From positions 33,934 through 97,933 of the forward strand of contig QCEQ01000001.1 in NCBI GenBank assembly GCA_003278525.1: a stretch of 64,000 nucleotides of DNA, in the 5' to 3' direction. Below are positions 6,651 to 24,540 of this stretch, piece by piece. How positions within the stretch are numbered: the first letter of the stretch is position 1; each line of letters opens with the position of its first letter. The position numbers were made by a program, and so were the translations under genes. The notes under the pieces are model-generated. The model saw only the letters and a program-made list of their open reading frames with translations, was not told the DNA's origin and searched no databases. The stretch is from Prochlorococcus sp. AG-355-P16. GTDB lineage: Bacteria > Cyanobacteriota > Cyanobacteriia > PCC-6307 > Cyanobiaceae.

Positions 6651-6704
6651 ACTTTTAACAGAAATGTATTAGATCATGTAAAGGATGAAGCATGGTCCTA
6701 TGCA

Positions 6705-6874
6705 CCCCCATGCCACCCATTACTTTCCTAAATTGTGACTTTGATGGATAATAAATATATAAAAGCGAATAGTATGATATTACATTCACGATTCGTTCAC
6801 GATATGCAATTTCCTCCAAACCCATTGATATGACTAAAGAAAATTTTTGGCTAATGAAGAGCGAACTGGATGCT
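6705..6874 (+). repeat. copy A of duplicated EVE-gene upstream region plus 5' codons
   Basis: CCCCATGCCACCCATTACTTTCCTAAAT...TTTGATGGATAATAAAT...TTCACGATTCGTTCACGAT...ATGACTAAAGAAAATTTTTGGCTAATGAAGAGCGAA aligns along its length with 24370-24540. Confidence 0.85.
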
Positions 6875-6889
6875 ATAAAGTATTCTTAA
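6830..6889 (+). pseudogene. truncated 5' remnant of EVE-domain gene (MTKENFWLMKSELDAIKYS*)
   Basis: matches MTKENYWLMKSEPDAYS of the intact gene at 24495, then stops. Confidence 0.8.
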
Positions 6890-6924
6890 ATCTGAATCAA
6901 ACCGCAAGATCTTTATTAGAGTCT

Positions 6925-7248
6925 TTAATTATTCAATTTATAGTTCGTCTTAATAGTTTTTATTATTGAATCTTGTGGTTCTTCACTTGGATAACAATTA
7001 ATAATTCTATATTTTCCGCCTTTCTTATCAGTCTCTACAACTGTAAATTCCACATACTTACCTATTCCATCTATTAAATCTTTAACTTCTATATTAATTA
7101 TCTCTTCATTCTCATTTTCGATAATACGAGATTTCCCACCGCAACTAATTAATGCATTTTCTTTAGTAACAAAAAAATCTTTATCATTACTGCATGAGGA
7201 CAGAAAAGATAAAGAAAATACTATTAAAAGAAGTTTTTTCATAGTCAA
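6925..7248 (-). CDS. lipoprotein, paralog of 11905 ORF
   Basis: signal peptide with SSCS lipobox; shared CGGKSRIIE.ENEEII.IEVKD...GGKYRI.NCYP...IKTIKTNYKLN. Confidence 0.75.
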   Translation of the reverse strand: MTMKKLLLIVFSLSFLSSCSNDKDFFVTKENALISCGGKSRIIENENEEIINIEVKDLIDGIGKYVEFTVVETDKKGGKYRIINCYPSEEPQDSIIKTIKTNYKLNN

Positions 7249-7407
7249 AAGTTTTTATACATAGTTATCTTATGAGGCAATTTTATTAAGTAGAAGTTAA
7301 ATATTTTTTGATTAATATAATTAAAAAAATTTGAATGTCAATTAATTATTAAAAAAATTTTAGCTACGTATCTTTATTTACTAATGCTAATCAGAATTTA
7401 TACATTA

Positions 7408-7426
7408 CTTAAATTTAATTTAACCC
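7408..7426 (+). promoter_or_regulatory. possible Pho-box-like repeats CTTAAATT-TAA-TTTAACCC
   Basis: two 8-mers with 3-bp spacing, imperfect match to the cyanobacterial Pho-box form; about 75 bp upstream of 7499. Confidence 0.25.
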
Positions 7427-7498
7427 TAATAAAAAATCTTTAATTAGTGACAAACAAATTGTTACCACACCTAAATTATAGAATTCGCAAATTACAAA

Positions 7499-9583
7499 AT
7501 GAAAAGAAAACTCTTTTCTGCGATATTAACAGGCACGATGCTAGTAGCTCCTGCCAGTACTCTTGCAGAAACAAAACGTATTGGTGAGACCAGAGCTCTA
7601 ATCCCTGAAGCAGGTCTTGCTTTGAACCCTGTCCTGGATGGTAGTAACGGAAACGTTAACTTCCCATATGGAAACTTTAAAGCACTCGCTACTGTTGGCG
7701 AAGTAGGAGACAACGGACTTGCACTGACTGGATATCCAGATGGACAGGCAGCATATCTGCTTGATAACGATACTATTCGAGTTGTTTATCAGTCCGAATC
7801 TTATGCGACCATGGGTAAAGCACCAGTCCCTGAGACTTATAACTGGGTTATGAAAAATGGTGTAACTTTCAGTGGTTCTCACATTCACACGATTGATTAT
7901 GATCGTGCAAAATTTGCTAAATTCATGCGAAATGGTTCTTCTGCAGAAGGAATGGTCAAGGACTCTGGTAAATTATTCAACACAATCTACAACGTATTTG
8001 GTGATGAAGTAACGAAGGAGAATTTAGTCTGGGGTAATCAAGCACTTCCCAGTCAACGCATTGTTCCTTTCCTAGATAAATACAAACTTTCTGAAGCCGA
8101 CTTCTTCCTACAGTCCTTTTGTGGTGCATGGTATGAACAAGCAAATAAATATGGTAATGGCATAGGGCTTGAGGATGATGTATGGTTTACTGCTGAAGAG
8201 TGGGAAATCGGTCGTATGTTCACTGGCTCTAAAAAGACTGGTAGAACAGAATCTGATAAAACGATGGGTCTTGCATCAATAGCTGTTGATGTTAAGAACG
8301 AAGTTGCCTACACTGCACCTGCTTTAGGTCAGACTGGTTATGAAAAACTCATGCCAATCAACCCTCAACACAAAGACTATGTTGTTATTGTTGGTGCTGG
8401 TTATAATCACAATCAAGAACCAGCTCCTCTTAAGGTTTATGTCGGCATGAAGGATCGTCTTCCTGATGGTTCTGAGATTGATTACTCTACTGCTAATGAG
8501 CGCGATGCCTTCCTTGGACGAAATGGTTTGCTCTACGGTCGCATCTACGGATTTGCAATGCCTACAAAATCTTATGCTGCACTAGGTCTTGAAGCAAATC
8601 CTGCCGCAAAGATGATGGATGAGTATTTGCAGAATGCTGATGCGCCTAACTCCTTTGAGGGTCGTTTCTATCCTACTTCCTATCAATGGGGTGGCTGGGA
8701 TAATCCAGTCGCAGTAAACAATACTGAGATGATGTTGTGGGAGCAAGCAGATGAACAACCTGAGGGTTACACCTTCTTTAACGGAGATTCAAAAGCCGAA
8801 CACCCTGCAGTAGATCCTGATATCAACCGTACTCGTTATGTTCAGAACATGACTAACAAAGGAGGGATTCTTGGTTTCGATTTTGGTTTCATTGGAGCCA
8901 CTCTAGACGCTGCTGATGGTGATCTCCCTGAATTCCTTCCTGCTACTGGTATTCGTGTTGTTCCTGCCATTGATGGAGCTCTTGTTCTTAAGACTGGTGG
9001 TGAAGGTGTTGTGAAGGATGGCTCTGCCGCAATTCATGTTGAGAAAAATAAGGCAGCAATGGTTGCTCCAGATGGACTTTATTGGACTAAACACGCTGAT
9101 GGTTCTTTCCTTATCGTTGATGAGGATTCTGGAAACGACTTTGGAGAGCGTAAGTATGTACTTCCCATCAAAGAGTCAGATATGACTTTAAGTGAACCGA
9201 ACACTGGCTACCTATTAGGTCTTGCTGGTGGTAAGCACTCTTCACGTTACGAAGCAGGTGTATCTGCTCTTGGTGGTGCATTTTCCAAAGCAACTACTTC
9301 CGAGTTCTCTGGTTCTTGGAACGTAACTGCTCTGACAGCTAAGAAGTCAAATGGTTTATTCGGAAGCAAATTCTACTCTATGGATGAACTTGCAGGAACT
9401 GGTGAACAAGAGATCATTCAGGGTATTGACACTGACGATCAACTCTTCATCGGTGTTGTTCAAGCCCGTGGTGAATCAGGTGGTGCGGTTGCTGCAGAAG
9501 GTGGTGATGCTGGTGGACAAGTTTTCCAATTCACTTTCAACTTGCCTGAAGAACCAGAGGAAAAGAAAATTGCTAAGTTCTGA
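7499..9583 (+). CDS. secreted PhoX/DUF839-like protein, possible alkaline phosphatase
   Basis: 694 aa with signal peptide; family resemblance by eye; Arg codons often CGT/CGC unlike neighbouring ORFs. Confidence 0.5.
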   Translation: MKRKLFSAILTGTMLVAPASTLAETKRIGETRALIPEAGLALNPVLDGSNGNVNFPYGNFKALATVGEVGDNGLALTGYPDGQAAYLLDNDTIRVVYQSESYATMGKAPVPETYNWVMKNGVTFSGSHIHTIDYDRAKFAKFMRNGSSAEGMVKDSGKLFNTIYNVFGDEVTKENLVWGNQALPSQRIVPFLDKYKLSEADFFLQSFCGAWYEQANKYGNGIGLEDDVWFTAEEWEIGRMFTGSKKTGRTESDKTMGLASIAVDVKNEVAYTAPALGQTGYEKLMPINPQHKDYVVIVGAGYNHNQEPAPLKVYVGMKDRLPDGSEIDYSTANERDAFLGRNGLLYGRIYGFAMPTKSYAALGLEANPAAKMMDEYLQNADAPNSFEGRFYPTSYQWGGWDNPVAVNNTEMMLWEQADEQPEGYTFFNGDSKAEHPAVDPDINRTRYVQNMTNKGGILGFDFGFIGATLDAADGDLPEFLPATGIRVVPAIDGALVLKTGGEGVVKDGSAAIHVEKNKAAMVAPDGLYWTKHADGSFLIVDEDSGNDFGERKYVLPIKESDMTLSEPNTGYLLGLAGGKHSSRYEAGVSALGGAFSKATTSEFSGSWNVTALTAKKSNGLFGSKFYSMDELAGTGEQEIIQGIDTDDQLFIGVVQARGESGGAVAAEGGDAGGQVFQFTFNLPEEPEEKKIAKF

Positions 9584-9626
9584 TTTTAAAACTAAAGTAA
9601 GCAATTAAAAATTGCAAGTTTATGAG

Positions 9627-9667
9627 ACCTATAAACTCATTAATACAATGAGTTTATAGGTTTTTTA
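9627..9667 (+). terminator. strong Rho-independent terminator after 7499..9583
   Basis: ACCTATAAACTCATT-AATAC-AATGAGTTTATAGGT-TTTTT, perfect 15-bp stem. Confidence 0.9.
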
Positions 9668-9810
9668 TATTTTAGAAAAAGAGTTGAAATTCTGATTTAT
9701 TTATTTTGAGTTAGTCAATTTTTAATCAGATTTGACCAGGGAATTAAATAATTTTTAATTTATTTTTAACTTTATAAATTTATCGTAAATGCATTTTAAG
9801 AAATAAAAAT

Positions 9811-10347
9811 ATGATAATTCCTGAAAAGCAAAATATAGAATTTAAAGAAAATACAATTCTAGAAGTCAAATCAGGAATATTAATAATGCAATCAAAAATC
9901 AAGAATAAGAAAAATATTGTTGGGATAATAAATGAAAATGTTGTAATAAATTTGGAATTATGTAACTACGAAAATATTAAATTAATTGCGTTGACAAATT
10001 GCGAAATTAAAACAATTAAAAGAGGGCTATTTTTTTCATCTACAGACTTATTAACAAAAAGTCTAAAAAGAATTGATCAATTGGAAAAACTTTTATTAAT
10101 AAGTAATATAAAAAAATCAGAAGAAAAACTAAAAGAATTTCTTTTATACTTATCTTCAATTATTGGCTTAAAAAAAGATAAACATATTTATCTAAATTTA
10201 AAAGAATTTAATTTTACCCATAAAATTATTGGTAATTCAATTTCTTCAACAAGAGTAACCGTAACAAGAAATTTAAAAATACTAGAAAAAAAAGGTTGGC
10301 TCAAATTTGAAAAAAAAGGTATTTTAATTCCGTTTAAAGATAATTAA
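9811..10347 (+). CDS. Crp/Fnr-family-like transcriptional regulator
   Basis: C-terminal winged-helix pattern IGNSISSTRVTVTRNLKILEKKGWLKFEKKGILI. Confidence 0.7.
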   Translation: MIIPEKQNIEFKENTILEVKSGILIMQSKIKNKKNIVGIINENVVINLELCNYENIKLIALTNCEIKTIKRGLFFSSTDLLTKSLKRIDQLEKLLLISNIKKSEEKLKEFLLYLSSIIGLKKDKHIYLNLKEFNFTHKIIGNSISSTRVTVTRNLKILEKKGWLKFEKKGILIPFKDN

Positions 10348-10399
10348 CCAAGCCTTAATAAAATAGATTTATTTTATATATACAAACAATATCTTTATT

Positions 10400-10705
10400 A
10401 TGTCTTGTTCTATAACATCTGTTTTTACTTTTAGAATTGAAAGCACTTTCGATGAATGGGCAGCAATATTTGATAGTGCAGAAGCAGATAAAAGGCATTC
10501 AGAATTTGATATTAAGCCACTTTTTAGAGGAGTAAGTAAGAAAGATCCTCAAAAAGTTATTGTTATTCATCAAGCTCCAGAAGGTAATGTTCAAAAGTTT
10601 GTAGAAGCTAATGGAGACTGGATGGCAACTCATAGAGTTGACTTATCAACAATGGAAGAATCATCTTGGACTTCTTCAGCAACAACGGAGAATTGTTGTG
10701 ATTAA
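10400..10705 (+). CDS. DUF3764-like small protein
   Basis: ORF track; recognised by pattern only. Confidence 0.55.
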   Translation: MSCSITSVFTFRIESTFDEWAAIFDSAEADKRHSEFDIKPLFRGVSKKDPQKVIVIHQAPEGNVQKFVEANGDWMATHRVDLSTMEESSWTSSATTENCCD

Positions 10706-10708
10706 GAA

Positions 10709-10957
10709 ATGAAAAGACTACTATTCCCACTACTAGCTCTCTCCACTATTTTCGTTGCGAGTTGTTCTAATAACTCAAACAAAATAGATACTCAAAAGAT
10801 TTCTGAAACCCAAAAGCAGAGAGAAATTTGTCTCAATTGGTATGGCTACAGAATTGATACCAATAAAGCAATTAATGATTTAAATCTAAAAATTGAAACC
10901 GAATCAGAATTAATGGCTTACTGTGATTTCTTTAAGAATGTAGCTGATACGAAATAG
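10709..10957 (+). CDS. small lipoprotein
   Basis: MKRLLFPLLALSTIFVASCSNN lipobox. Confidence 0.65.
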   Translation: MKRLLFPLLALSTIFVASCSNNSNKIDTQKISETQKQREICLNWYGYRIDTNKAINDLNLKIETESELMAYCDFFKNVADTK

Positions 10958-10973
10958 ATTTTTACAAAAGAAT

Positions 10974-11144
10974 TTATTTTTTGGTATCTTGCGATCTCAT
11001 TTCTTTTTGTGCTTCCCTAATTCTTTCTTCAAAGACTGATCTTCTATATGGAGTAACTTCTCCATTTTTAGTTGCCAAGATTTGGGCTTCATAAAGCCTC
11101 TTGGCTCTTGTAATTTTTTCTCTTATTTGAGAGAGCTCATTCAT
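10974..11144 (-). CDS. 56-aa hypothetical protein
   Basis: MNELSQIREKITRAKRLYEAQILATKNGEVTPYRRSVFEERIREAQKEMRSQDTKK. Confidence 0.55.
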   Translation of the reverse strand: MNELSQIREKITRAKRLYEAQILATKNGEVTPYRRSVFEERIREAQKEMRSQDTKK

Positions 11145-11296
11145 GATCTTATGCAGTTAATGAGAATCCCGTTCCCTATTCTCATATCATGCGTCCAAAT
11201 AAATTGGATGAACGTAAAAGTAAGCTAACATTAAAAAAAGAAGTTCGGATTTAAGATATATTTAAAAAATCTTTAAAAGTAGTTTTTAATAAAATT

Positions 11297-11551
11297 TTAA
11301 ATAGAAATTTTATCTAGAGGTAAAATATTCTGGGCATCAATTGAGTCCAAATGAATTTCATTCTCTGTATCTTTATACAATCTTCTAGATTGTGGTGATT
11401 TAAGGGCGTTATTGTAATTTTCAATAAATTCCGAATCATCCAAAATAGATTTATTTTCTCTTTTAAAACTTTCTTTATAAGAATATTTGATATGCCCTAT
11501 TTCTTGGGATTGATTTGAGTTTTTGGGAGAAGGTGAATTTTTTTTTAACAT
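11297..11551 (-). CDS. hypothetical protein, 84 aa
   Basis: ORF track. Confidence 0.5.
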   Translation of the reverse strand: MLKKNSPSPKNSNQSQEIGHIKYSYKESFKRENKSILDDSEFIENYNNALKSPQSRRLYKDTENEIHLDSIDAQNILPLDKISI

Positions 11552-11768
11552 TTATTATTTTTTTTATATGATTGTCTTCAATATTCAAGGCGATAAAATA
11601 TAAAAGACTAGTTTAACCTAAGATTATTGGATTAAGAAGTTATTAAGTAAAAAATAAATTTGTTTAAAAAATTTCTAAATTTCTAAATTAAATATTTTTT
11701 CTAATAGTCAAAAGTTTATTTAATAAGAATTTAATTAAAAGTTAACAATAGAGACCTATGAGATAAAT

Positions 11769-11921
11769 ATGAACAAAAATCAACTTATTAACTTCATTAC
11801 ATTTTCAATTCTTGAAAGTAAAAGAGTTGAAGACAGATTATGTAGAAAAGAAATTTATAGCTATCTTACCCAACTAAATAAAAGACAATTAAAAGCAATT
11901 ACAAGTGAATTTATCATTTAA
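11769..11921 (+). CDS. 50-aa small protein, paralog of 6081 ORF
   Basis: MNKNQLINFITFSILESKRVEDRLCRKEIYSYLTQLNKRQLKAITSEFII. Confidence 0.55.
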   Translation: MNKNQLINFITFSILESKRVEDRLCRKEIYSYLTQLNKRQLKAITSEFII

Positions 11922-12351
11922 AAAAAATATGAAAAAGCTTCTGGTTGTATTTGTTCTTATTCTTACTTCTTGCAGTACAAAAGATGAATTATCCATTACC
12001 CAAGATGAATTATCCATTACCCAAGATGAATTATCCATTACAAAAGATGAAATTTCGATCACGAAAGGTGAATCATCCATTACTGATGAAAAAAAATTAT
12101 TTTATGTAACTAAAGAAACTGCTGTTCGTCTTTGTGGAGGTAAATCCAGAATAATTGAAAGTGAAAATGAAGAAATCATCAAAATAGAAGTCAAAGATTT
12201 TTCAAATGTTGAAAAAGAAAAATTTGTTCAATTTACTCTCGTTGAGACAGATAGAAAAGGTGGTAAATATAGAATTGTTAATTGTTATCCAAATAAAGAT
12301 CCTAAAAAATCGGTAATTAAAACAATCAAGACTAATTACAAATTAAATTAG
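11905..12351 (+). CDS. lipoprotein with 7-aa tandem repeats, paralog of 6925 ORF
   Basis: lipobox LTSCS; KDELSITQDELSITQDELSITKDEISITKGESSIT; C-terminal domain shared with 6925..7248. Likely start is MKKLLVVFVLI (about 11929). Confidence 0.75.
   Translation: MNLSFKKNMKKLLVVFVLILTSCSTKDELSITQDELSITQDELSITKDEISITKGESSITDEKKLFYVTKETAVRLCGGKSRIIESENEEIIKIEVKDFSNVEKEKFVQFTLVETDRKGGKYRIVNCYPNKDPKKSVIKTIKTNYKLN
11982..12082 (+). repeat. 21-bp coding tandem repeat (GATGAATTATCCATTACCCAA)
   Basis: three near-identical units followed by two diverged units. Confidence 0.85.
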
Positions 12352-12371
12352 TCTTAGGTCAACTAGATAAA

Positions 12372-12725
12372 ATGAAAATATTTAAATTTCTATTTGTAAT
12401 TCCTGTAATAACTTTAATAATTATTTTTCAAACCTCTTTGCAAAATAGATATCTAATGGCTTCTGAAATTAGAGATGGAGAAACAATTTTTAGAAATGTT
12501 TGTACAGGCTGCCATGTAAGAGGTGGATCAGTTGTTCTTAAAGGATCCAAATCATTAAAACTTTCCGACCTTGAAAAAAGAGGAATTTCAGATGAGAAAT
12601 CAATAGCAAAAATAGCTAATGAGGGGATAGGTTATATGAAGGGTTATAAAAATAAATTAAAGGATGGAGAGGATAAGGTTCTTGCACAATGGATTATTCA
12701 AAATGCAGAAAAGGGTTGGGAGTAA
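12372..12725 (+). CDS. c-type cytochrome, cytochrome c6-like
   Basis: N-terminal hydrophobic segment, NVCTGCHVRGG heme motif, IANEGIGYMKGYKNKL Met-ligand region. Confidence 0.8.
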   Translation: MKIFKFLFVIPVITLIIIFQTSLQNRYLMASEIRDGETIFRNVCTGCHVRGGSVVLKGSKSLKLSDLEKRGISDEKSIAKIANEGIGYMKGYKNKLKDGEDKVLAQWIIQNAEKGWE

Positions 12726-13094
12726 ATGAAAAGTGTACTTCTTGCATCGTTTTTATTTCTATTAGCTGAATTCTCTTTTGCTGAGGAATTAACTAATTAC
12801 ACAATTACATCTGATTCTCAAGTTAATACTTTAGAAGGAGATTTAGAGGCTAAGGGAAATGTAGTCATTAAGAGTAATAGTAGTAATTTTGAGGCTTATT
12901 CTGACAAGCTTTCTTTTGACAAGGATGATAAATCTCTAAAACTTATTGGTAATGTATATGTTAAAAATTTAGAGTCTGAAGGAATTTCAATTGAAGAAAC
13001 GTCTGGAGATGAGTTGACCATATTTACTGATACAGGAATTTTTGAATTCAAATCTCAAAATAAAAACAGAGTAACAACAAAAATTAAATTCTAA
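12726..13094 (+). CDS. OstA/LptA-like periplasmic protein
   Basis: signal peptide; DSQVNTLEGDLEAKGNVVIKSNSSNFEAYSDKLSFDKDDKSLKLIGNVYVK beta-repeat pattern. Confidence 0.65.
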   Translation: MKSVLLASFLFLLAEFSFAEELTNYTITSDSQVNTLEGDLEAKGNVVIKSNSSNFEAYSDKLSFDKDDKSLKLIGNVYVKNLESEGISIEETSGDELTIFTDTGIFEFKSQNKNRVTTKIKF

Positions 13095-13205
13095 ATAAAG
13101 GCTTGCTTTTAAAAAAAAATTTGTATTAAAAGGAAATTTTAAATGAGATTTAAAGCTGCTTTAATCTAGATAATCTAAAAGGAAATAGTAGAAATAATTA
13201 TTATT

Positions 13206-13370
13206 ATGCATCCAAGCAAAGTAATAACTGATCCAAGAATTAATGACACTTATTATGATCCAGATTTAGATAAGCTTTATCAATACGTTAAACTTGGAGA
13301 TTATCCTCCAGAATGGATTGATACAACTCCATATAAAGAGGATGATTTTTTTTCTTCATTCGGATACTAA
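13206..13370 (+). CDS. 54-aa hypothetical protein
   Basis: MHPSKVITDPRINDTYYDPDLDKLYQYVKLGDYPPEWIDTTPYKEDDFFSSFGY. Confidence 0.5.
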   Translation: MHPSKVITDPRINDTYYDPDLDKLYQYVKLGDYPPEWIDTTPYKEDDFFSSFGY

Positions 13371-13375
13371 AGCAA

Positions 13376-14332
13376 TTGTATATCAATACTTTTTCAAACC
13401 TTAAAAGGTTATTCAAAATTGGGATATTTACTGCCCTTTTATCCACCTTTAAAGTCTATTGTTATGAAGGCCCGCTTTTTGATGCAATGGCCCAATTAGA
13501 TGAAAGACCAGGATTTGAAAAATCCATTTCTAGAGTGAGAGATGCTGGAATTTATAAGATTGCTCTTTTTGCCAGAAGTAGAAAATACTTAGGTGAAAAT
13601 GAAAAAGCATTACTCAATTTGCATAGAGACAACAAAGATTTAATAGTGCTTGGTGCACCAAAGTATTTTTTGCATGAAAATGACATTGGTAAATCCTTCA
13701 CAAAGCGAACTTTGAAAAATATTGATAAATATAAATATTCTTTTGTAGGAGAAATCTTATTCACTCATGCAGATAAGACTCATGGTAGACAGCATGAATC
13801 AGGAGAAACATATTTAGACCCATCAGGAAAAGGGTTTACTGACTTTTTAGTGAAGTTTTCTTCAAAGAATATTCCTGTTATGACACATTGGGAGTTTTAT
13901 GATTGGGAAAGAGACTGGCCTAAATTTTCTAAACTTTTCCTTGATTTCCCAAATCAAAAATTCATAATACCTCATATGGGTTTTGGGAGTCCAAAACAGG
14001 TTAGATTAATCCTTTCAACTCATGACAATGTATATATGACAATATCGAAAAAAAGTAGAGATAAAGGAAACATCTCTGATCCTATTAAACAATCTAAATT
14101 TGGATCTGGATTTTTAAATTATAAAAAGCAATTAAAAGATGAATGGAAAAAAATCTTAATCGAGTATCAAAATAAATTGTTATTTGCCACTGATGCGCAT
14201 AAAAAGCACCGTTGGAAAAAATATTCAAAAACAGTGAAGTTATATCGTGATATTTTAAATCAATTACCTGAAGAAGTTTCTAAAAAGATTGCTTACTTAA
14301 ATGCTGAAAGGATTTATGACATAAAAAATTAG
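13376..14332 (+). CDS. TIM-barrel amidohydrolase-like protein with signal peptide
   Basis: VMTHWEFY, IIPHMGFG and LFATDAHKKHRW motifs, amidohydrolase-2-like. Confidence 0.6.
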   Translation: MYINTFSNLKRLFKIGIFTALLSTFKVYCYEGPLFDAMAQLDERPGFEKSISRVRDAGIYKIALFARSRKYLGENEKALLNLHRDNKDLIVLGAPKYFLHENDIGKSFTKRTLKNIDKYKYSFVGEILFTHADKTHGRQHESGETYLDPSGKGFTDFLVKFSSKNIPVMTHWEFYDWERDWPKFSKLFLDFPNQKFIIPHMGFGSPKQVRLILSTHDNVYMTISKKSRDKGNISDPIKQSKFGSGFLNYKKQLKDEWKKILIEYQNKLLFATDAHKKHRWKKYSKTVKLYRDILNQLPEEVSKKIAYLNAERIYDIKN

Positions 14333-14469
14333 AGAATTAAAAAAAGATTTAAATACTAGTAAACGTTTTTGGGATGGCTGATAAGAAAAAGAAAAAGAAA
14401 TGCAAAAAGAAAAAATGTTCAAACTGGAAAGGGGGTAAATGTATTTGTTATGGCCAATAGACTAGATAC

Positions 14470-14521
14470 GGTGATTGAAAGTCGATATAAAATTGGAGAG
14501 ATAAAACCCTCTCTTTTTGTG
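14470..14521 (+). repeat. copy 4 of island promoter/hairpin element
   Basis: GTGATTGAAAGTCGATATAAAATTGGAGAGATAAAACCCTCTCTTTTTGTG. Confidence 0.65.
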
Positions 14522-15568
14522 AAAAAATTATTATACATTTTTCTAGTATTGATGTCTTTTACCACTGGTAATTCATACTCATGGGAAAAGGTACCTGTTC
14601 CAGATTCTGTAGATAAAAAAACAAAATCTCCTTGGAATTTTTCTGAAGACTTTGAAAATCAAGAAGAAGGAAAATTAAAAGTTGCCAACCCTAACTCTTC
14701 ATCCTCAAATTCTCCTTCTGGTGGGGGTACAGAAAAATCATTCAACCAAATATTTCGAATCTACGATAAGGGAGCAGGTTTAAAACCATTTAGAATTAAA
14801 AAAGATCTTGATGGCAATAAGTATCTTGAAGTTACAGTGAAACATGGATGGAATAATGATCCTCTTAAAGAAGGTTCAGGAAAAGAAACAGAAAGAGCAA
14901 TATTTGAGACAAAGCAAAGAAGCACTTTAAATAAAGAAATATGGATTGGTTTTAAAACAAGACTTCCTAAAGATTTTAAACATACAGATGGCAGAGTAAC
15001 GTTTTTTGAATTTAAAAATCGACATGTATATATGAGAACGCATCCTCTTGTAAGAATAAGTTTTGATGACACTGGAAAAACATTAAAAATATCAGGTAAT
15101 ACTGCCGGTACTGGTTTCAATAGAAGGAATAAAGAAGATAATATTAAGCATCGCATTGATATAAAATATAAAAAAAATGATTCAAATTGGTTTGTGCGTA
15201 ATGAAAAAACTAGAGGTGAAAAAAAAATAAAAAATAATTTTAAACTCACACCGAACAAAACATTTAGTGTGACTCAATTAGGTGAATGGAGCACGTATAA
15301 AATTGGAATCTACAATACAAAGGATGATGATGGTTTTGTAAAAGTCTTCAAAGATAAGAAATTAATATTTGATTACAAAGGTATAACATCTGACTGGAAA
15401 GGAAAATACACTGGTACTAATGTAAGAATAGGTGTTTATAGACACTCGGGAAAACAAATTGGAATTGAATACCCCGATCAATCTATCCATTTTGATGATT
15501 TTATTGTCGTCTCAGATCAAAAAACTTTAGACCAATTGATCAGAAAGAATGAAAAACCCAATGATTGA
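14519..15568 (+). CDS. secreted heparin-lyase-like polysaccharide lyase (GTG start proposed; ORF track start 14369)
   Basis: GTG start gives VKKLLYIFLVLMSFTTGNSYS signal peptide directly after repeat element; jelly-roll-like pattern ERAIFETK...EIWIGFKTRLP...DGRVTFFEFKNR. Confidence 0.55.
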   Translation: MKKLLYIFLVLMSFTTGNSYSWEKVPVPDSVDKKTKSPWNFSEDFENQEEGKLKVANPNSSSSNSPSGGGTEKSFNQIFRIYDKGAGLKPFRIKKDLDGNKYLEVTVKHGWNNDPLKEGSGKETERAIFETKQRSTLNKEIWIGFKTRLPKDFKHTDGRVTFFEFKNRHVYMRTHPLVRISFDDTGKTLKISGNTAGTGFNRRNKEDNIKHRIDIKYKKNDSNWFVRNEKTRGEKKIKNNFKLTPNKTFSVTQLGEWSTYKIGIYNTKDDDGFVKVFKDKKLIFDYKGITSDWKGKYTGTNVRIGVYRHSGKQIGIEYPDQSIHFDDFIVVSDQKTLDQLIRKNEKPND

Positions 15569-16065: not shown

Positions 16066-16129
16066 AAATACTAAACAAAAAAAAAAATTGATATAGCGAC
16101 TTGTTGGGCTACTAAAAGAATTTCTGTTA

Positions 16130-16288
16130 TGGATAATCTAGAAAGATATGAAGACAGTTATGCAATAGCAGAAGAATTTAGAGAGTGGATACTGCATATA
16201 GGAGAAAAGAATGAAAATTTAAGAGATTCTTTATTAAACTTACCAAAGGAATTAAAAGAATTATTAGACCAAAAAGTCAACGATTAAA
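16130..16288 (+). CDS. 52-aa hypothetical protein
   Basis: MDNLERYEDSYAIAEEFREWILHIGEKNENLRDSLLNLPKELKELLDQKVND. Confidence 0.5.
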
Positions 16289-16800
16289 TGAAACGCTTAG
16301 CTTTATTTATTGTTTTCCCACTTATATTTGGTTTCGGAAACGATAAAGCAAGATTATGCGAAGACCTTAAATTTGCAATAAATAAATCAAAAAATGATTA
16401 TCAGCAAAAAATATCATTTGCAAAACAAAGCAAAGAATTTGCTAATGATAAAGTTACCAAAATTTATGCAATAGAGACAAAATGGGAGGATCTTTTTGAT
16501 AGTCCTTATGAAATAGAAAGCTTATGTAATGAATATTTCTTAATAAAAGAATTTAATATTGATTTATCTAGTGAATGTTATTTGTTTGAAACTATCTTAA
16601 AAAGTGGAAATTATAGTGATGAAGATTTTGATTTTATGCCCAAAGAAAGAAGACAAAATGCTCAAGCTCTTATAGAAGAATTTAAAGCCAAATATGATCC
16701 AATTAATAAACAAGCAAAAGAAGATTATTTATCAGAACAAAAAGAAATGCAGAAAATATATCGAAAGAAAAAATGCGATAAAGTCACTTATGGTTTTTAA
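16288..16800 (+). CDS. secreted hypothetical protein, 170 aa
   Basis: ORF track; signal peptide. Confidence 0.65.
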   Translation: MKRLALFIVFPLIFGFGNDKARLCEDLKFAINKSKNDYQQKISFAKQSKEFANDKVTKIYAIETKWEDLFDSPYEIESLCNEYFLIKEFNIDLSSECYLFETILKSGNYSDEDFDFMPKERRQNAQALIEEFKAKYDPINKQAKEDYLSEQKEMQKIYRKKKCDKVTYGF

Positions 16801-16977
16801 ATGAAACGCTTGATATTACCTCGACCCAAAGACTAAATTAATGGAATTTTTAAATGAGCTTTAGCAAAATCATTATGACCCATACCATACAATTCTTGGT
16901 ATAGGTGGAATAATATTATTGTTGGTAATTTACAATAGATTACTCAATAAATATCATTAATCACAAACCATCGGAGA

Positions 16978-17130
16978 TTAAGCAGCATCAGATATATTGT
17001 TATTCGTATCTTCAATCTTTTCAATTTCTTTAATCATTTCCTCTAGCCATAAAGTATTATCTTCTGATCTCTTTTTAAAATAAGAAATCTTAGGTTGATT
17101 GATTTCTAATGTCTCATAATCTCCACTCAT
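16978..17130 (-). CDS. 50-aa NTxWL-family small protein MSGDYETLEINQPKISYFKKRSEDNTLWLEEMIKEIEKIEDTNNNISDAA
   Basis: hand translation; paralog of 5042..5179. Confidence 0.75.
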   Translation of the reverse strand: MSGDYETLEINQPKISYFKKRSEDNTLWLEEMIKEIEKIEDTNNNISDAA

Positions 17131-17287
17131 AAAATTTTCCTAAATTTATAACCACTTAAATTTTAGTTAGTTTATTTATTAGTTTTACTAAGGGGAAAAT
17201 AAGAAAAAATTAATTTATGGTTAATATGAACTAAGACAAATTAAATATTATTTATAAAAATATCGGAAACACTTAATTTACCTAATG

Positions 17288-17521
17288 CTAACCACCAGTA
17301 CAGAAACGAACCGCATCAGCTGTTGGCGAACCAGTCGCTTTCATTTCTTCAACACATTCATTAAAGAACTTTGATTCTTTTTTTAATGAGCAAAAGCTTA
17401 GTGCAATAGCTACTAAGGCAACAGCTGATACAACTGCTGATCCTAGTTGTATCACTCCGTAAGCAAGCATAGCTTTATTCTTTTTTAAATCTTTTTTTGT
17501 ATCTTTTTTTTTATCAGACAT
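17288..17521 (-). CDS. small membrane protein (start MSDKKKDTKK preferred over ORF track start 17572)
   Basis: Lys-rich N-terminus then TM helix LAYGVIQLGSAVVSAVALVAIALSF. Confidence 0.55.
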   Translation of the reverse strand: MSDKKKDTKKDLKKNKAMLAYGVIQLGSAVVSAVALVAIALSFCSLKKESKFFNECVEEMKATGSPTADAVRFCTGG

Positions 17522-17818
17522 TTTTTTTAAAATTCTTAGCTTATTATATTCAACTAAATAACTAGACTCCACATAAAGAAAAGGTAAGTTATAAAGTTAA
17601 ATGTTAAATGTATATTGTTATTCCCATAACCAAATTCTGAAGAGGAAAAGCTCAAACTAAAAAGTAGAAAAAGTGATGAGAAAATTAATTAAAAATTTAT
17701 TTGAAATTAATTATTTTGTAATTGTTTTCTGAAAATAATTTTATTTCTTAAAGATAACTTTTTCTTAAATTATTTTTAAATTTCATATGAGATTAATATA
17801 GGTAATTGAATAATCTTA

Positions 17819-18220
17819 ATGCATATAGATGATGCAGTGTTTTTAGAGGATTTATGCCCTAAGCTCAAATTAAGATTTTGGCGAAAGTCCATTCATACAT
17901 TTACGGGCAAAAGATGTATATATTGCGGAAAACCTTCAGAATCTATTGATCATATATTGCCAAGAAGTCAAGGAGGATTAAACATAACAGAAAATTGTGT
18001 TCCAGCTTGTCTTTCATGCAATGGAGACAAATCAGATGAGAATGTTTTTGATTGGTATAGAAAGAAAAAATTTTATGATCCTAGAAGAGCTATGGCTATT
18101 AGAGCATGGTTAGATGGAGACTTAATATTATCTATAAGATTATTACAATGGGCTAATCAAGAAATTAAGGAAAATAAAGCAAATTTTGAACAAAAAGAAT
18201 CTAATCTAGAAGCTGCTTAA
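17819..18220 (+). CDS. HNH endonuclease family protein
   Basis: RCIYCGKP...SIDHILPRSQGG...ENCVPACLSCNGDKSD HNH pattern with paired Cys. Confidence 0.85.
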   Translation: MHIDDAVFLEDLCPKLKLRFWRKSIHTFTGKRCIYCGKPSESIDHILPRSQGGLNITENCVPACLSCNGDKSDENVFDWYRKKKFYDPRRAMAIRAWLDGDLILSIRLLQWANQEIKENKANFEQKESNLEAA

Positions 18221-18941
18221 ATATCAAAGATAATTAAGTTAATTAAGTTAATGGAATTTATTAAATATAAATAAGAGATAAACATAAAAAACTTTTACAG
18301 GAAAGCTTTGTAAATTTTGACTAGAATAATCAATTACAACTGCTATTCCAAAATCAGAGAAATAAAAAAATAAAGGAATGCATTAACTCTGCAAGGAAAT
18401 TAGAAAAAAGAAAAAATCGTCATTTGTTTATATTTTGAGGAACCAATAACTAAATTTAAACTTGACATCTTATGGAATTTTTTATGCGTAAAATTACAAA
18501 ATTCATTTTCATCTGAAAAGTTAATTAAATCAACTGCATTAATATTTGAATCAAACCACTGGTCATATTCAATGTAATTTGGCTCTGCAAAATAAGTCAT
18601 ACCAAATTAATTTCAAAAAGAAAATGCTTCTATTTTTCGTGTGAGGAGAATATAAAGCTATCTCCAGCTTAAAATATTTAATGAACTCTTCTTTAAGAAT
18701 TAAATAAGATACAAATAAGAAAAAATAAAATATTATTTTAAAATCAAAAAATGATTAGTTGTAGACTATATAAATTTGCATCCAAGACCACTGCTTTGCT
18801 TTAGGAGAATTGAATGCATTACTAAGAGTCACATTTTAGGGTTATAAGCAGGTTATGAATTGTTTAAAAAAAAAAAGAAAAAAATTGATTGAAACTTTTG
18901 ATGAGGATTATTAATAATCAAGTAGTTTTTTAAGATCTAGT

Positions 18942-19131
18942 CCCCCCATGCCACCCATCACTTTCCTTTATGGGAACTTTCTTCGACTAATATTGTTCGA
19001 TAAACTAAATAAAATGCTTTTAATTTGGCTGATTTACAAAAAAGTTAACAGCATGCCATACCAGCAGCCCTATTTCCCGCAAATTATAGACTATGACTGA
19101 ATCTAACTACTGGCTAATGAAAAGTGAGCCA
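18942..19131 (+). repeat. copy B of duplicated EVE-gene upstream/5' region, interrupted
   Basis: CCCCCCATGCCACCCATCACTTTCC...GGAACTTTC then, after ~110 bp of unrelated sequence, ATGACTGAATCTAACTACTGGCTAATGAAAAGTGAGCC. Confidence 0.8.
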
Positions 19132-19164
19132 GTAGTCATATCAATGGATTTCAAAAACCGTTAA
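19093..19164 (+). pseudogene. truncated 5' remnant of EVE-domain gene (MTESNYWLMKSEPVVISMDFKNR*)
   Basis: matches MTKENYWLMKSEP of the intact gene at 24495. Confidence 0.8.
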
Positions 19165-19227
19165 AAAAATGTTCACGATATGTTCACGATTTTTACAGCT
19201 AAAATTTATTGAAAAAATTTGTTACTA

Positions 19228-19374
19228 ATGGCAATTTCACACTACAGAAAACAAAGGATAATGCTTTTAGCAAGACTCAATCTTGGTTTAGCTAGTGAAG
19301 ATAAAGAAGAAATTGATCTTTATAATCACTACCAAAAAAATATTTATTCAAAACAAAATCAACAACAGCAATAA
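19228..19374 (+). CDS. 48-aa hypothetical protein
   Basis: MAISHYRKQRIMLLARLNLGLASEDKEEIDLYNHYQKNIYSKQNQQQQ. Confidence 0.5.
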   Translation: MAISHYRKQRIMLLARLNLGLASEDKEEIDLYNHYQKNIYSKQNQQQQ

Positions 19375-19568
19375 TTAAACTAGGAAACCATCCTCGAAAA
19401 GATAGACAAAAAAAAATAAATAGTATATTTTATTAGTAGGTAAACCATCAAATTGGGAAATTAAACCCTCACTATTCTTTCGTTGTCTGTCTTACGATTA
19501 AAACAGTCCTAGAAAAAGAAAGTTAATAAATCATACCTATAACTAATCCACCTATTAAGGGCACAATT

Positions 19569-19856
19569 ATGGCTATTAATGCTTTAAAAAAAGATGAAAT
19601 GTTGGCATCTATAAAATCAACATTTACCGTCGAAGGTAAAACTTTTGACTCCAAAGAAGAAGCTGAAAAGTATTTTCAAAACCAACAGAAAATTAAGGAA
19701 GCTTCAAAAAAACTAGTATGTTTTTTCAAAAAAACTTCAATTCATGATCGTTTTTCTTTTTTTGATTCAAAAGATTTTGCCAAATGGCTTTTTGAGAATC
19801 GCCATCAAATTGGAGAAGTTCTTGTTGATTTTGGTGCTGAAGAGCATCTCTTTTGA
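19569..19856 (+). CDS. hypothetical protein, 95 aa
   Basis: ORF track. Confidence 0.65.
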   Translation: MAINALKKDEMLASIKSTFTVEGKTFDSKEEAEKYFQNQQKIKEASKKLVCFFKKTSIHDRFSFFDSKDFAKWLFENRHQIGEVLVDFGAEEHLF

Positions 19857-19882
19857 TAATTTTTTTTTGATTGAATGTAAAT

Positions 19883-19908
19883 AAAGGGGCTAATTAAGTC
19901 CCTTTTTT
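19883..19908. terminator. bidirectional terminator between convergent genes
   Basis: AAAGGGGCTAATTAAGTCCCTTTTTT. Confidence 0.75.
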
Positions 19909-20407
19909 ATTTTCCTTTTCGCATTACTTCAAACATACTTAAATATTGAAGTGGAAATACAGTAGCGAGATTCTCTATTCGTTCTTCATCAAGTTCTATT
20001 CCTTCTGGTAATTTTTTAATCAATTTTGGGATTGCTAATTTTGTTTCTGCTTTGCAGAAATTTATCCGGTAAGTTGCTTCTCTTCTAATGTTGGCTTTTA
20101 TTAATCCATCTTCAGTGAAAGCAGAATTTATATCTAACTTGTTGCCCTTAAGGAGTGCAATTAAAACTTGATCCGCAATTCTCAAAGCTTTATTTGGTTC
20201 CGTGCCCTTTGTTATTCCAAATATCCAAGTACAGGCTCCTACACCAAATGAACGTGCAATACATTCATCATTACCGATTTCATCACAGGGTAACCTAAAA
20301 GACTTTTCAAGTTTCTCTAGATCATAACCACTTTCACCTTCCGGGAATCCCGCAAAAGTAGTCACTGGAAATATCAAAAAGAAGGTTAAAGCTATTAATT
20401 TTTTCAT
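19907..20407 (-). CDS. secreted hypothetical protein
   Basis: signal peptide MKKLIALTFFLIFPVTTFAG; last gene of minus-strand operon. Confidence 0.7.
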   Translation of the reverse strand: MKKLIALTFFLIFPVTTFAGFPEGESGYDLEKLEKSFRLPCDEIGNDECIARSFGVGACTWIFGITKGTEPNKALRIADQVLIALLKGNKLDINSAFTEDGLIKANIRREATYRINFCKAETKLAIPKLIKKLPEGIELDEERIENLATVFPLQYLSMFEVMRKGK

Positions 20408-20577
20408 TGCACTACCTCATCAATCAAAAGATGAAAAAGACTGCATGTGAATAATCTGTCTAGTATCTCTAATCTTTGCCTTTCTTCGTATGAAATTGTC
20501 TCTCCATTTGAAATTTCATCCAAGGTATTTCTTATAGTCACAATCATTCGTAAAAGGCAGGTTGATGGTTTATTCAA
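20404..20577 (-). CDS. 57-aa small protein, TTG start (tandem paralog 3)
   Basis: MNKPSTCLLRMIVTIRNTLDEISNGETISYEERQRLEILDRLFTCSLFHLLIDEVVQ; overlaps both neighbours by about 4 nt. Confidence 0.55.
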   Translation of the reverse strand: MNKPSTCLLRMIVTIRNTLDEISNGETISYEERQRLEILDRLFTCSLFHLLIDEVVQ

Positions 20578-20804
20578 AATACTTCCTCCTCCTCTTCTTC
20601 CAACTTTAGATTAATTTCAATATTCATCTCGTAGCAAAGGTATCGAACCAAAGCATCTGATAAAAAATAATCTTTTTTCATTAATGGATCAATTTTTGAG
20701 ACAAATGGCTGATTATAATTTTCAACTTTAATAAGTTCTTTTCTTACTTTAAGAAGGTCTTTTAAAATTCTTGTACTTGGTCTTGCATTTGTTGGGATGT
20801 TCAT
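20574..20804 (-). CDS. 76-aa small protein (tandem paralog 2)
   Basis: NARPSTRILKDLLKVRKELIKVEN... aligns with 20807 and 20404 ORFs. Confidence 0.65.
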   Translation of the reverse strand: MNIPTNARPSTRILKDLLKVRKELIKVENYNQPFVSKIDPLMKKDYFLSDALVRYLCYEMNIEINLKLEEEEEEVF

Positions 20805-20806
20805 AA

Positions 20807-20980
20807 TTAAAGTTCCTCTCGTAAATAATTAAATAAAAGTTCTGACATCATTTCATCTAGCGTCTCAAGTCGAGTAATTTCATGAAAAGAAGCGGGCTTT
20901 CCATGTTCAATCCTGTCTAAAGATTCACGAACACTTGCCAATATTCGCAGAATCCTAGTTGATCTTTTTTCTTCATACAT
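20807..20980 (-). CDS. 57-aa small protein (tandem paralog 1)
   Basis: MYEEKRSTRILRILASVRESLDRIEHGKPASFHEITRLETLDEMMSELLFNYLREEL; start overlaps previous stop. Confidence 0.6.
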   Translation of the reverse strand: MYEEKRSTRILRILASVRESLDRIEHGKPASFHEITRLETLDEMMSELLFNYLREEL

Positions 20981-21225
20981 TAGAAATTATCCGTATCAGG
21001 TAAATGTCCTTCTTCATCTTTTGGCATCTTTTCGAGCCATTTATCAATTAGATCCTTATGCTCTTTAGATACGTAATCATCTAATTGATGTTGAAGGGTT
21101 GCAACTTCACATTGGAGTGCATTTATTTGTTCTTTTAAAAGGAAGTTCAGTTCCTTTTGTTTAGCAATTTCAACAAAAAAAATTTCTCTAAATTGAAGGA
21201 ACTCTTGTGCTATTGATAAGTCCAT
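20980..21225 (-). CDS. 81-aa coiled-coil-like protein
   Basis: ORF track; heptad-like KQKELNFLLKEQINALQCEVATLQHQLDDY. Confidence 0.65.
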   Translation of the reverse strand: MDLSIAQEFLQFREIFFVEIAKQKELNFLLKEQINALQCEVATLQHQLDDYVSKEHKDLIDKWLEKMPKDEEGHLPDTDNF

Positions 21226-21233
21226 CTCCTTGT

Positions 21234-21953
21234 TTAAAGAAAATGACTAGCATCTGCAGTTACTTCATGAGAAGTTTCAATAGCTTTAGGACAACCTAAT
21301 TTCCACTCGCAATATCTGCAATTATTTGCCGATGGCTTTGCCTCAGGCATATCAGTAGCACTTGAAACTCTTAAGATATTTCTGATTCTCTTTTTAGTAG
21401 ACTCCGGCAAAACTTCATCTGTTGCATTATCGCCTGTAATTGTAAGAAACTGTTTATTTTCTTTATCCGACTTACTAGAGTTTTCCTCACCATAACAAAG
21501 TGCAAAACCAATAATCTTAGGAATTGGTTTTTTCTTAGACCAAGCAGCAGCCTGGAGCATCACTCCATAAATTCCACATTGAATCCAATGACTTTGACTT
21601 TTTTTACCACTTTTGGCATCGGCAATAAGAAGATCTCCATTAGAAAATTCAACAACTGCATCAGGTGTGCCGTATAAAACATTTCCATAAAGAGGAATCT
21701 TCTGAGTTGGACACTCCATGTGAATTTTTTCATTTGGGTATTCAGTCTGTAAATGTAAATTCAATTTGTTTAAAACTGAAGTATGTTCTAGTTGCCATTT
21801 AGAAAATGAATCATCCGTTTTATTAGCCTTATAACGAGTTGCCATCCACATACTCAAGTCACAAGAATTTTCAAAAGTTGCTGCCTTAGCTAGAACGCTT
21901 GGTCCCAAGCACTCCCAACCTCTGGCTTTGGGTTTAAAAAGATTAAAGTCCAT
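21234..21953 (-). CDS. PD-(D/E)XK nuclease, Cas4/RecB-like with Cys cluster
   Basis: GTPDAVVEF, LLIADAKSGK, QCGIYGVML and C-terminal CRYCEWKLGC. Confidence 0.75.
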   Translation of the reverse strand: MDFNLFKPKARGWECLGPSVLAKAATFENSCDLSMWMATRYKANKTDDSFSKWQLEHTSVLNKLNLHLQTEYPNEKIHMECPTQKIPLYGNVLYGTPDAVVEFSNGDLLIADAKSGKKSQSHWIQCGIYGVMLQAAAWSKKKPIPKIIGFALCYGEENSSKSDKENKQFLTITGDNATDEVLPESTKKRIRNILRVSSATDMPEAKPSANNCRYCEWKLGCPKAIETSHEVTADASHFL

Positions 21954-21980
21954 AATAAAAATTAGTTAAGTTTGATAAAT

Positions 21981-22814
21981 TTATTTTTTATATTTTTTTG
22001 GAGGCAAACATATGCCTATAAACATAGGAAGTCCAAAATCATGACATTTTTGAGTTGCTGTTGCCATAAGATTCTCAAGAATATTTAAAGTTTCTTCCTG
22101 ATCACTATCTTCAAGATCTAGTACTTCGTTCTGAGCTACAGTTTCTGCTCTAGTTGCTGATACTGGCGGAGTTGCTGTTGTTGATGGTGGAGTTGCTGTT
22201 GTTGATGGTGGAGTTGCTGTTGTTGATGATGGAGTTCCTGTTGTTATTGATGGTGGAGTTCCTGTTGTTGGTGGTGGAGTTGCTGCAACTTCATCAATTA
22301 GGTCTGCTCTACTATCTGCACCAGTTGTAGTTAACACTTCATCAACTAGTTCTTTTTCATTGCTAGGTATCAATGAAGGTGTTGTATCAACAGAGCCTGC
22401 CGCAATACCTTCTAAACGTTTCTTTGCATCTACTTCAACAAGGTCATCAAAACTTTTAGTGAAAAGTTTACCAGTTCCAGGTTTTTTACAAGGCTTAATA
22501 TATTCGCCTTTAAGTGCAAGTCCAGTGGAATAGTTATAGTCAGAGCCTTGCTCCAAGCAAATAAGAAAAACTCTTTCTTCTCCATTATTGGCAATTACTC
22601 CATTAAGGTATGGTCCATAAAAACTATTATTCAAACCAGGCATAACTCTCACACACATACCTTCATCAATAGTTGTTTCATCATTTTTTTTGCTGCCATC
22701 TAATATTTCTGAAAATGGCGTGGTCCAGGCATTGAACCATCTACTATTTTTAGTCTTCATGGCAGTAGTACTCGCTATCGGGAACATGAGGATTATTTCT
22801 CCAATAATCTTCAA
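21981..22814 (-). CDS. hypothetical protein with Thr/Pro-rich repeat linker
   Basis: TGTPPSITTGTPSSTTATPPSTTATPPSTTATPPVSAT; start probably an internal Met. Confidence 0.65.
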   Translation of the reverse strand: MKIIGEIILMFPIASTTAMKTKNSRWFNAWTTPFSEILDGSKKNDETTIDEGMCVRVMPGLNNSFYGPYLNGVIANNGEERVFLICLEQGSDYNYSTGLALKGEYIKPCKKPGTGKLFTKSFDDLVEVDAKKRLEGIAAGSVDTTPSLIPSNEKELVDEVLTTTGADSRADLIDEVAATPPPTTGTPPSITTGTPSSTTATPPSTTATPPSTTATPPVSATRAETVAQNEVLDLEDSDQEETLNILENLMATATQKCHDFGLPMFIGICLPPKKYKK

Positions 22815-22947
22815 AGAGAGTTTTTTTCTTAATCTGCACCAAATTATTTTTTGGTAATTGCTTCTTACTTTTCTCCTGAGAAGACAGTTTAGAGCTGGAG
22901 ATTACTTTAGTTTCCTGCTGATACATAAAAAATGTTATATAGTATTA

Positions 22948-22970
22948 CTAATTTTAGTATCTAATTTTAG
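22948..22970. promoter_or_regulatory. tandem operator-like repeat CTAATTTTAG-TAT-CTAATTTTAG
   Basis: two identical 10-mers, 13-bp period, each with CTAA..TTAG dyad, in the divergent region upstream of the nuclease operon. Confidence 0.45.
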
Positions 22971-23169
22971 TAATGTCAAGCAACTAATCCATCAAACACA
23001 AGTAAATTTTCCCCATTTAATTTAAAATTCCAAAATAATTAAAAAAATATTTAAAGTTTTGCAAAAGTGTTTAAAGATTAGACTACTAAATTTATCTATT
23101 TTAAATTACTATTGTTAAGTATATTTTTTATAATATAATTAAGTAAAACATTTTTTAATTATTTTAAGA

Positions 23170-24252
23170 ATGGCTGAGAATATTAAAGATCTCCCAATAG
23201 AAAAAATTGAATCGATAATTTCTTCTGCAAAAAGATGTTTAATTTTTATAGACCATTTTGGATATCTTTTAGGAAATTACTCATTAATGAGTAATGATCA
23301 AGAGAAAAAGAATCTAAATTTTGATGATACTATTGACCAGATAGAGAATGAAGAGGCATATCTTTGGTTTTTGAATTTAATTAATGCAAAATATACTCCA
23401 GGGAAAAATGAGGATTTATCTGATAAAAGAGACGGTTTTATTCCTTTTTTAAAGGTTTTTGATTATTTAAAAGACAACAATATTCCTCTCTTACCTTGGA
23501 GTTACATTTATCAAAATGCACATATTTATAATCAAAATGTTGAGGATAATTATCTCTCTTTGGAGGAAGAATTTACAAATGAAATTACAACTGAGAAAGA
23601 TTATTTAGGAAAATATTATTTTGATGACTTGTTTAAAATAGTAACCTCAAAAATGAGGCAATTTCCAAGATCAAATGAAATTTATCAACTTTTATCTGTA
23701 TGTCTAATATCAGAATTTATGGGAAAGGAGTATGAATTAAAAGAATTAACCAAAAGTAAAATTGATAAAAATGTAATTAAAGAACTATTTGTTAAATATT
23801 ATGAAAAGTTTGAATTAGATCTCAAATCAAAAATACCTACAGTTGTGAAAAGCCAGGAGAAAAGCTGGACAGATCTAAGCAACTATATGATTTCATTACA
23901 GAAAAAAATAATTGAAATTAGGACAAAATATTTAAAATCATATAAACAGTTAATTCATGATGAAAAAGTTAAATTAACAATTAAGAGAGAAAAATTAGAA
24001 AAGTTATTCTCTGAGATTAATCATTTTTTAGATATTAATAACATTGATCCAAGAAGTTGGGAATCAAGCTCAAATTTTCCATCTATTTCAGAAGTTAAAC
24101 AAATGAGTTTAGGTCCAACATTGCTTTCAAAAATTCAAATTGGAGATGGTGATCAAATTAAAGGATTTCCAAAAATAAGGGAGGCTTTTTTCGAAGACCT
24201 TAAAAATAATTCTCTTAATGAAAGTAATTTACCCCAACCAACAAATAGGTAA
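23170..24252 (+). CDS. hypothetical protein, 360 aa
   Basis: ORF track; no recognised family. Confidence 0.7.
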   Translation: MAENIKDLPIEKIESIISSAKRCLIFIDHFGYLLGNYSLMSNDQEKKNLNFDDTIDQIENEEAYLWFLNLINAKYTPGKNEDLSDKRDGFIPFLKVFDYLKDNNIPLLPWSYIYQNAHIYNQNVEDNYLSLEEEFTNEITTEKDYLGKYYFDDLFKIVTSKMRQFPRSNEIYQLLSVCLISEFMGKEYELKELTKSKIDKNVIKELFVKYYEKFELDLKSKIPTVVKSQEKSWTDLSNYMISLQKKIIEIRTKYLKSYKQLIHDEKVKLTIKREKLEKLFSEINHFLDINNIDPRSWESSSNFPSISEVKQMSLGPTLLSKIQIGDGDQIKGFPKIREAFFEDLKNNSLNESNLPQPTNR

Positions 24253-24369
24253 CAATCCCATAGTTATTCAAAACGATATTGTAAAACTGATAAAAATAAG
24301 CAATGTGGATGGAAAAAAAGTTTTATAAATTTTTTAGAACTCACAACGATATTTAAATAATTCTAATTA

Positions 24370-24540
24370 CCCCTATGCCACCCATCACTTTCCTAAATAG
24401 GAACTTTGATGGATAATAAATCTAATAAAGCAAATCACATAAAATTATGTTCACGATTTGTTCACAATTAATAATTTCCTCATAATCTATTGGTATGACT
24501 AAAGAAAACTACTGGCTAATGAAAAGTGAACCTGATGCTT
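24370..24540 (+). repeat. copy C (parental) of duplicated EVE-gene upstream/5' region
   Basis: aligned with 6705-6874 and parts of 18942-19131. Confidence 0.85.

Follow-up and report, generated by a model that had tools for sequence, protein, structure and literature searches.

EVE locus and its repeated gene starts

The window, that is the whole stretch of 64,000 nucleotides of Prochlorococcus DNA that was analysed, includes one intact EVE-domain gene with two truncated copies of its 5' end and upstream region lying before it. The copies bracket two segments of other genes, and no tRNA gene was found in the whole window. The main features of the locus are the following:

6705..6874, + strand: displaced 5' block A, a type-c right end with ATG at 6830 and core at 6848-6864; lies directly before EVE in genome G170 (L076)
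6784..6805, + strand: arm pair ATTCACGATTC GTTCACGATAT within block A
6865..19110, + strand: composite island segment, its left part common to genome G190 (L150) and its right part to G114 (L145)
18942..19131, + strand: displaced 5' block B, a type-i right end with a hybrid upstream part; ATG at 19093 and core at 19111-19127, both on the + strand; lies directly before EVE in G114
19128..24529, + strand: integrated element of 5402 bp, type c at both ends; absent from G114 (L145), in which the flanks are joined at the core
24495..24953, + strand: intact EVE-domain gene, 152 aa (PF01878, E 3.5e-52), the probable attachment gene
24513..24529, + strand: active core TGGCTAATGAAAAGTGA, from EVE codon 7, probable attR of the presumably newest element; crossover mapped to TGGCTAATGAA

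When the window was read again, the three EVE 5' blocks were found at the coordinates of an earlier sequence-only reading, which had proposed that two truncated copies precede the intact gene and differ from one another. Both points held. In blastn against its own genome the block at 6704-6874 had 80% identity to the EVE region (E 1e-38), and the interrupted copy matched it in two parts, 18943-18980 and 19092-19130 (E 3e-7 and 2e-6). Beyond these copies the EVE region had no further blastn match in the genome (1.46 Mb, 45 contigs). The exact core TGGCTAATGAARAGYGA is present three times in the window with zero mismatches, at 6848, 19111 and 24513. The truncated frames starting from the ATGs of blocks A and B read MTKENFWLMKSELDAIKYS and MTESNYWLMKSEPVVISMDFKNR, respectively, each ending in a stop. 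Block B was also considered as an ancestral empty promoter. It carries the ATACCAGCA pair, however, and therefore marks another element end.

The two bracketed segments, of about 12.2 and 5.4 kb, had both been suggested to be cargo segments. The shorter one is a single element, but the longer one is composite and not one unit: window positions 6829-10507 match G190 (L150) with 97% identity, and parts of 9676-19130 match G114. A Glutamine-II riboswitch (53 bits) is present at 11160-11217 on the minus strand, within the composite segment. HNH homing (17819-18220) was rejected as an explanation, as that gene sits in the composite segment and outside the 5.4-kb element. A left-end family without arm repeats (ACTGGATGCTAWAAAG...) was found at 6865-7250 of the window and at L149 10713, L150 1008 and L158 15791; in this family a minus-strand gene (107 aa in the window and L149) ends 61 bp inside the element.

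States of the locus with and without the inserts

The insertions were precise. Comparison of strains with and without the island genes, as proposed in the sequence-only reading, revealed insert-free joins in G170, G114, L082 and L159. In G114, positions 17524-19161 of L145 correspond to 17501-19130 of the window (97% identity), covering the sequence up to the core at 19111, and positions 19123-19885 resume at 24494-25258, so that EVE follows directly after this core and exactly 19128-24529 is missing. In G170, positions 12984-16444 of L076 correspond to 3414-6874 of the window (95.5% identity over 3.4 kb), up to the core at 6848, and positions 16277-18908 resume at 24369-27000, with the intact EVE gene directly after that core. 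A second, independent case is a type-e element of 5.7 kb, which L074 has and both L082 and L159 lack. In other strains the EVE locus is occupied by different elements. Many of the genomes are single-cell or draft assemblies, while G170 and the L074/L082 pair come from nearly closed genomes. As the locus is known without the segments of the window, with some of them and with all of them, its states fit the prediction of serial accretion.

The 5.4-kb element and its cargo

The element at 19128-24529 bears GTTCACGAT arms at its left and right ends and has seven frames of at least 70 aa. Its ends and cargo include:

19169..19191, + strand: left arm pair GTTCACGATAT GTTCACGATTT, type c
19907..20407, - strand: 166-aa protein of family F11, a family present in four island segments
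21234..21953, - strand: PD-(D/E)XK nuclease, Cas4-like, 239 aa (PF12705, E 4e-9; PADLOC Cas4 models, E 7e-7)
21981..22814, - strand: 277-aa protein with a Pro/Thr-rich linker
23170..24252, + strand: 360-aa protein without an assigned family
24366..24512, + strand: right end of the element, supplying the EVE upstream region, the start codon and the first six codons
24449..24470, + strand: right arm pair GTTCACGATTT GTTCACAATTA, type c, with 11-bp spacing

Most gene families of the element recur in L161, there too between type-c ends. The 360-aa protein had no Pfam or PADLOC match and only a non-significant PHROG match (E 0.31). It was rejected as a recombinase because it had no match and was present in only 7 of the 200 genomes. 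The cargo of other elements includes a LOG-like protein, TPR proteins, a beta-lactamase-fold protein, a PrsW-type protease, an HNH protein and others, and no gene was common to all elements. A minus-strand unit of three genes, coding for an unknown protein, a metallophosphoesterase and a CobW C-terminal domain, recurs at the EVE island in many species (e.g. L065 15600-17921).

Core and crossover point

For the anatomy of the sites, 108 core copies from 41 loci were aligned, and TGGCTAATGAA was invariant or nearly so among them. Core positions 12, 14 and 15 were linked to the type of the 3' flank (p-value 0.0005 for each, the floor of 2000 shuffles and uncorrected for relatedness of the genomes), and no linkage was found between these positions and the type of the 5' flank. 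Since the variation follows only the 3' flank, the exchange is placed 5' of position 12, within TGGCTAATGAA. The crossover is also clustered: the extra matches of the 170-bp block, those to remnants, ended at the core, and the match at the EVE gene itself continued past it. Scattered breakpoints, which the sequence-only reading had named as evidence against its proposal of recombination inside the conserved core, were thus not found, and both the clustering and the one-sided linkage of the core polymorphism agree with that proposal. A short shared core with the crossover inside it is a feature of the att sites of phage-type tyrosine recombinases.

Arm repeats at the element ends

Direct repeats matching at 9 or more of 10 positions were present in 62 of the 97 left ends and 78 of the 136 right ends, when all loci, other genera included, were counted; shuffled sequence gave 0.8 and 0.6%, respectively. 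The spacing of the repeats was exactly 11 bp in 139 of 140 cases, and the arms started at +58 (IQR 58-59) and -66 (IQR -67 to -65) from the core start. Phage-type att sites likewise have arm-type direct repeats of about 10-11 bp, placed at a fixed distance on either side. Also the suggestion that an element brings a replacement promoter and 5' end stood, but the upstream block is not merely a promoter: it is the element's own right end, with arm repeats of the recombinase type.

At least eight arm types were distinguished (CAAACTT, TTCACAC, TTCACGA, TCTAGCA, TTCGAAC, TCCACAC, ACTAGCA and ACCAGCA), most of which fit the loose pattern TNCNNRC. These words were taken from the same alignments, and the spacing and position statistics are independent of them. 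The arms are coupled within elements: the left arm and the next right arm agreed in 30 of the 57 typed pairs of successive cores (permuted 15.3 ± 2.6, maximum 25 in 20,000 permutations). The arms were unlike in the remaining 27 neighbouring pairs, for which either the loss of internal cores or an exchange between blocks has to be assumed.

The sequence 3' of the remnant cores is non-random and falls into few families, e.g. GCGCGACTAGCTATTACTGGGATCTCAAGGAATCGTAAT, most of which then have a direct-repeat pair; a pair of similar kind is also present 5' of the cores. In many cases the left end introduces an in-frame stop after only a few codons, and because of this the remnants encode short peptides only.

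Three further observations concern single loci. L151 has at 2201-2324 a 'solo' element of 123 bp, in which type-d left and right ends are fused at a shared arm pair, like a deletion between arms. L180 is an unrelated prophage (58% GC) with a type-i arm pair, CATACCAGCAGCATACCAGCA, at 1348-1369, about 50 bp after a tRNA-like sequence. Its integrase has 403 aa and an Arm-DNA-bind_3 domain, and the presence of the pair in an integrase-bearing prophage supports, from outside the EVE system, the interpretation of the arms. Type-a left ends joined to other sequence at ATGAAAAGTGA were found far from EVE in L162 (~4455) and L163 (~4245). They were initially read as secondary integrations, but the L163 flank is a displaced copy of EVE-island sequence, and either secondary integration or rearrangement could account for them.

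Distribution in the genus and family

The EVE gene was found in 173 of the 200 genomes of the genus, many of them having multiple core copies. Among the 66 near-complete genomes, 35 had two or more cores when at most one mismatch was allowed, a count that includes a few second matches off the locus. The system extends to other genera of the family, in which arrays of up to seven copies and the same kinds of arm words were found; most genera with genomes of 2-4 Mb have one core copy. Every named record with the commonest left end is a single-cell genome of Prochlorococcus.

Search for the recombinase

In the 41 EVE islands (1952 open frames) a profile of Prochlorococcus integrases did not detect any recombinase, and a corresponding profile search of the EVE loci of other genera gave none either. 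The sequence-only reading had recognised no integrase in the window; none was found in the island either, and the missing integrase proved to be a property of the whole system. An integrase beside EVE was rejected, as there was no strong PF00589 match near the gene among the matches listed for the 200 genomes, the closest of these on the same contig being 44 kb away (G026). A serine recombinase (PF00239) was also considered. In G171 and G109 a conserved copy lies downstream of EVE at a distance of about 87 kb, and none was seen at the island.

Because the 41 islands include no recombinase, the elements are probably moved in trans. For the same reason the assignment of the enzyme class is based on the anatomy of the att sites, which points most likely to a tyrosine recombinase.

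Proposed mechanism and alternative explanations

The start of the EVE gene is very probably a bacterial attachment site that has been used in serial site-specific integration by small elements, with a recombinase acting in trans. The elements, mostly of 1-6 kb, would integrate when the copy of the 5' block that they carry recombines with the core in the chromosome at codon 7 (TGGCTAATGAA). The inserting element would bring an upstream region, a start codon and first codons of its own, so that EVE would stay intact, and the previous 5' end would be displaced upstream as a remnant, with the left end of the element directly after it. Repeated insertion would produce a one-directional array, the segments of which may have been inserted in the order in which they now lie, and the elements may excise as circles. 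The short core together with paired 11-bp direct-repeat arms on both sides corresponds to the anatomy of phage-type arm-binding tyrosine recombinases, and the enzyme, being absent from the elements, would be supplied in trans.

Two explanations do without any such enzyme. That the 5' end of EVE was duplicated in tandem long ago and has since been immobile agrees with the divergence of the copies (80% identity for block A), but the sequence-only reading had pointed out that remnants in one place with the same flanks in all strains would be expected from it, and G170, G114 and the window instead show different states of one locus; static duplication can practically be dismissed. Homologous recombination between diverged EVE 5' blocks could also build an array. 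The blocks are similar enough to recombine, and both the unlike arm pairs and the hybrid block at 18942-19131 suggest that exchange occurs, yet clean insertions at an 11-bp core would be unexpected, as would the fixed arm distances, the 11-bp spacing, the coupled arms and the joining of left ends of several sequence families to the core at one place. Homologous recombination as the builder of the array is thus highly improbable.

Given site-specific integration in trans, the enzyme could come from outside or from the core genome. The elements may be satellites whose movement depends on several phages or larger mobile elements, the integrases of which would each recognise particular arms and all use the EVE core as attB; this is a serious possibility, falling somewhat short of probable. 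The number of arm types (at least eight) and their coupling within elements argue for it, as do the type-i arms in the integrase-bearing prophage L180 and the presence of other tyrosine recombinases elsewhere in many genomes. Against it, no phage record matches the element, and scans of viral contigs with the core and six arm patterns did not reveal a helper that has the EVE core in its context: the matches to the core pattern all lacked the block, and those to the arm patterns were the tRNA-linked prophage L180 and four others without core context. A more tentative and rather unlikely candidate is a conserved single-copy tyrosine recombinase of 389 aa, by which the array would be a domesticated cassette platform, served as cassettes are by a chromosomal integron integrase. 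Its gene (L171 3911-5077) lies between hemH-like and pyrH-like genes, neighbours that we take from their sequence to be hemH and pyrH. The enzyme is the sole PF00589 match of the genome of the window among the matches listed (G000:C14, another contig). It has 70-96% identity over 21 genomes, its N-terminal domain of 88 aa being about as conserved as the catalytic domain, and one loose pattern, TNCNNRC, covers most arm words. The N-terminal domain is predicted to fold as alpha-beta-beta-beta-alpha (pLDDT 90); only the model of this domain was used, as the model of the full protein (pLDDT 57) was too uncertain. The topology resembles that of arm-binding domains. However, fold searches gave no significant match, with a few viral integrases among the weak ones, there was no Pfam arm-binding match, and a single enzyme would not simply account for arm words that vary among elements and are coupled within each. 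The wider idea, a two-part chromosomal cassette system unlike integrons, in which EVE arrays lacking a recombinase and having coupled, diversifying arms are moved in trans by a vertically inherited tyrosine recombinase of the core genome, is doubtful.

Comparison with known systems

Among the photosynthetic cells of the ocean Prochlorococcus is the most abundant, and the tRNA-linked tycheposons explain only part of the gene gain and loss in its islands. The EVE gene start would add a further kind of integration site, one that lies in a protein gene and is present throughout the genus as well as in further genera of the family. As the ends are exact, element boundaries, cargo and turnover can be computed in many single-cell genomes. 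The system raises two questions: what enzyme moves elements that have none of their own, and why both arms of one element share a sequence that varies among elements.

In the literature found in a limited search, EVE was not named as an attachment gene. T7-like cyanophages integrate at tRNA-Leu (PMC8776855) and a siphovirus uses a tRNA-Met-related site (PMC2784084). The ssrA-specific islands of Dehalococcoides are similar in that many cargo islands are found at one gene, but their target is the tmRNA gene and an integration module is present in 16 of the 31 islands (McMurdie et al. 2011, PMC3146451). Integron cassette arrays share with the EVE arrays small cargo units that have no recombinase of their own, a fixed site and a single orientation. 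In integrons, however, the integrase lies by the insertion site, while the 41 EVE islands have no tyrosine recombinase, and the EVE sites differ also in their arm repeats and in that their core lies within a coding gene.

The nearest precedents are the tRNA-linked tycheposons and the dusA 5'-end islands. Tycheposons are found in the same genus, form islands by site-specific integration and carry cargo genes. They reportedly carry a tyrosine recombinase (work of Hackl et al. from 2023), whereas the elements of the 41 EVE islands are without one. Tycheposons are located at tRNA genes, seven in number (PMC10872708); the EVE site is in a protein gene, and no tRNA gene was found in the window or in the EVE loci scanned. 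The dusA islands lie at the 5' end of a conserved protein gene, bring a replacement 5' end and promoter, and have 21-bp semiconserved direct repeats and diverse cargo (Farrugia et al. 2015, PMC4482086). They are thus similar in their insertion at the 5' end of a protein gene, there dusA and here EVE, and in the replacement of that end. The dusA islands share a universal integrase gene (PMC4482086), whereas the EVE elements examined (41 islands) carry no integrase, are small and form stacked arrays with many arm types.
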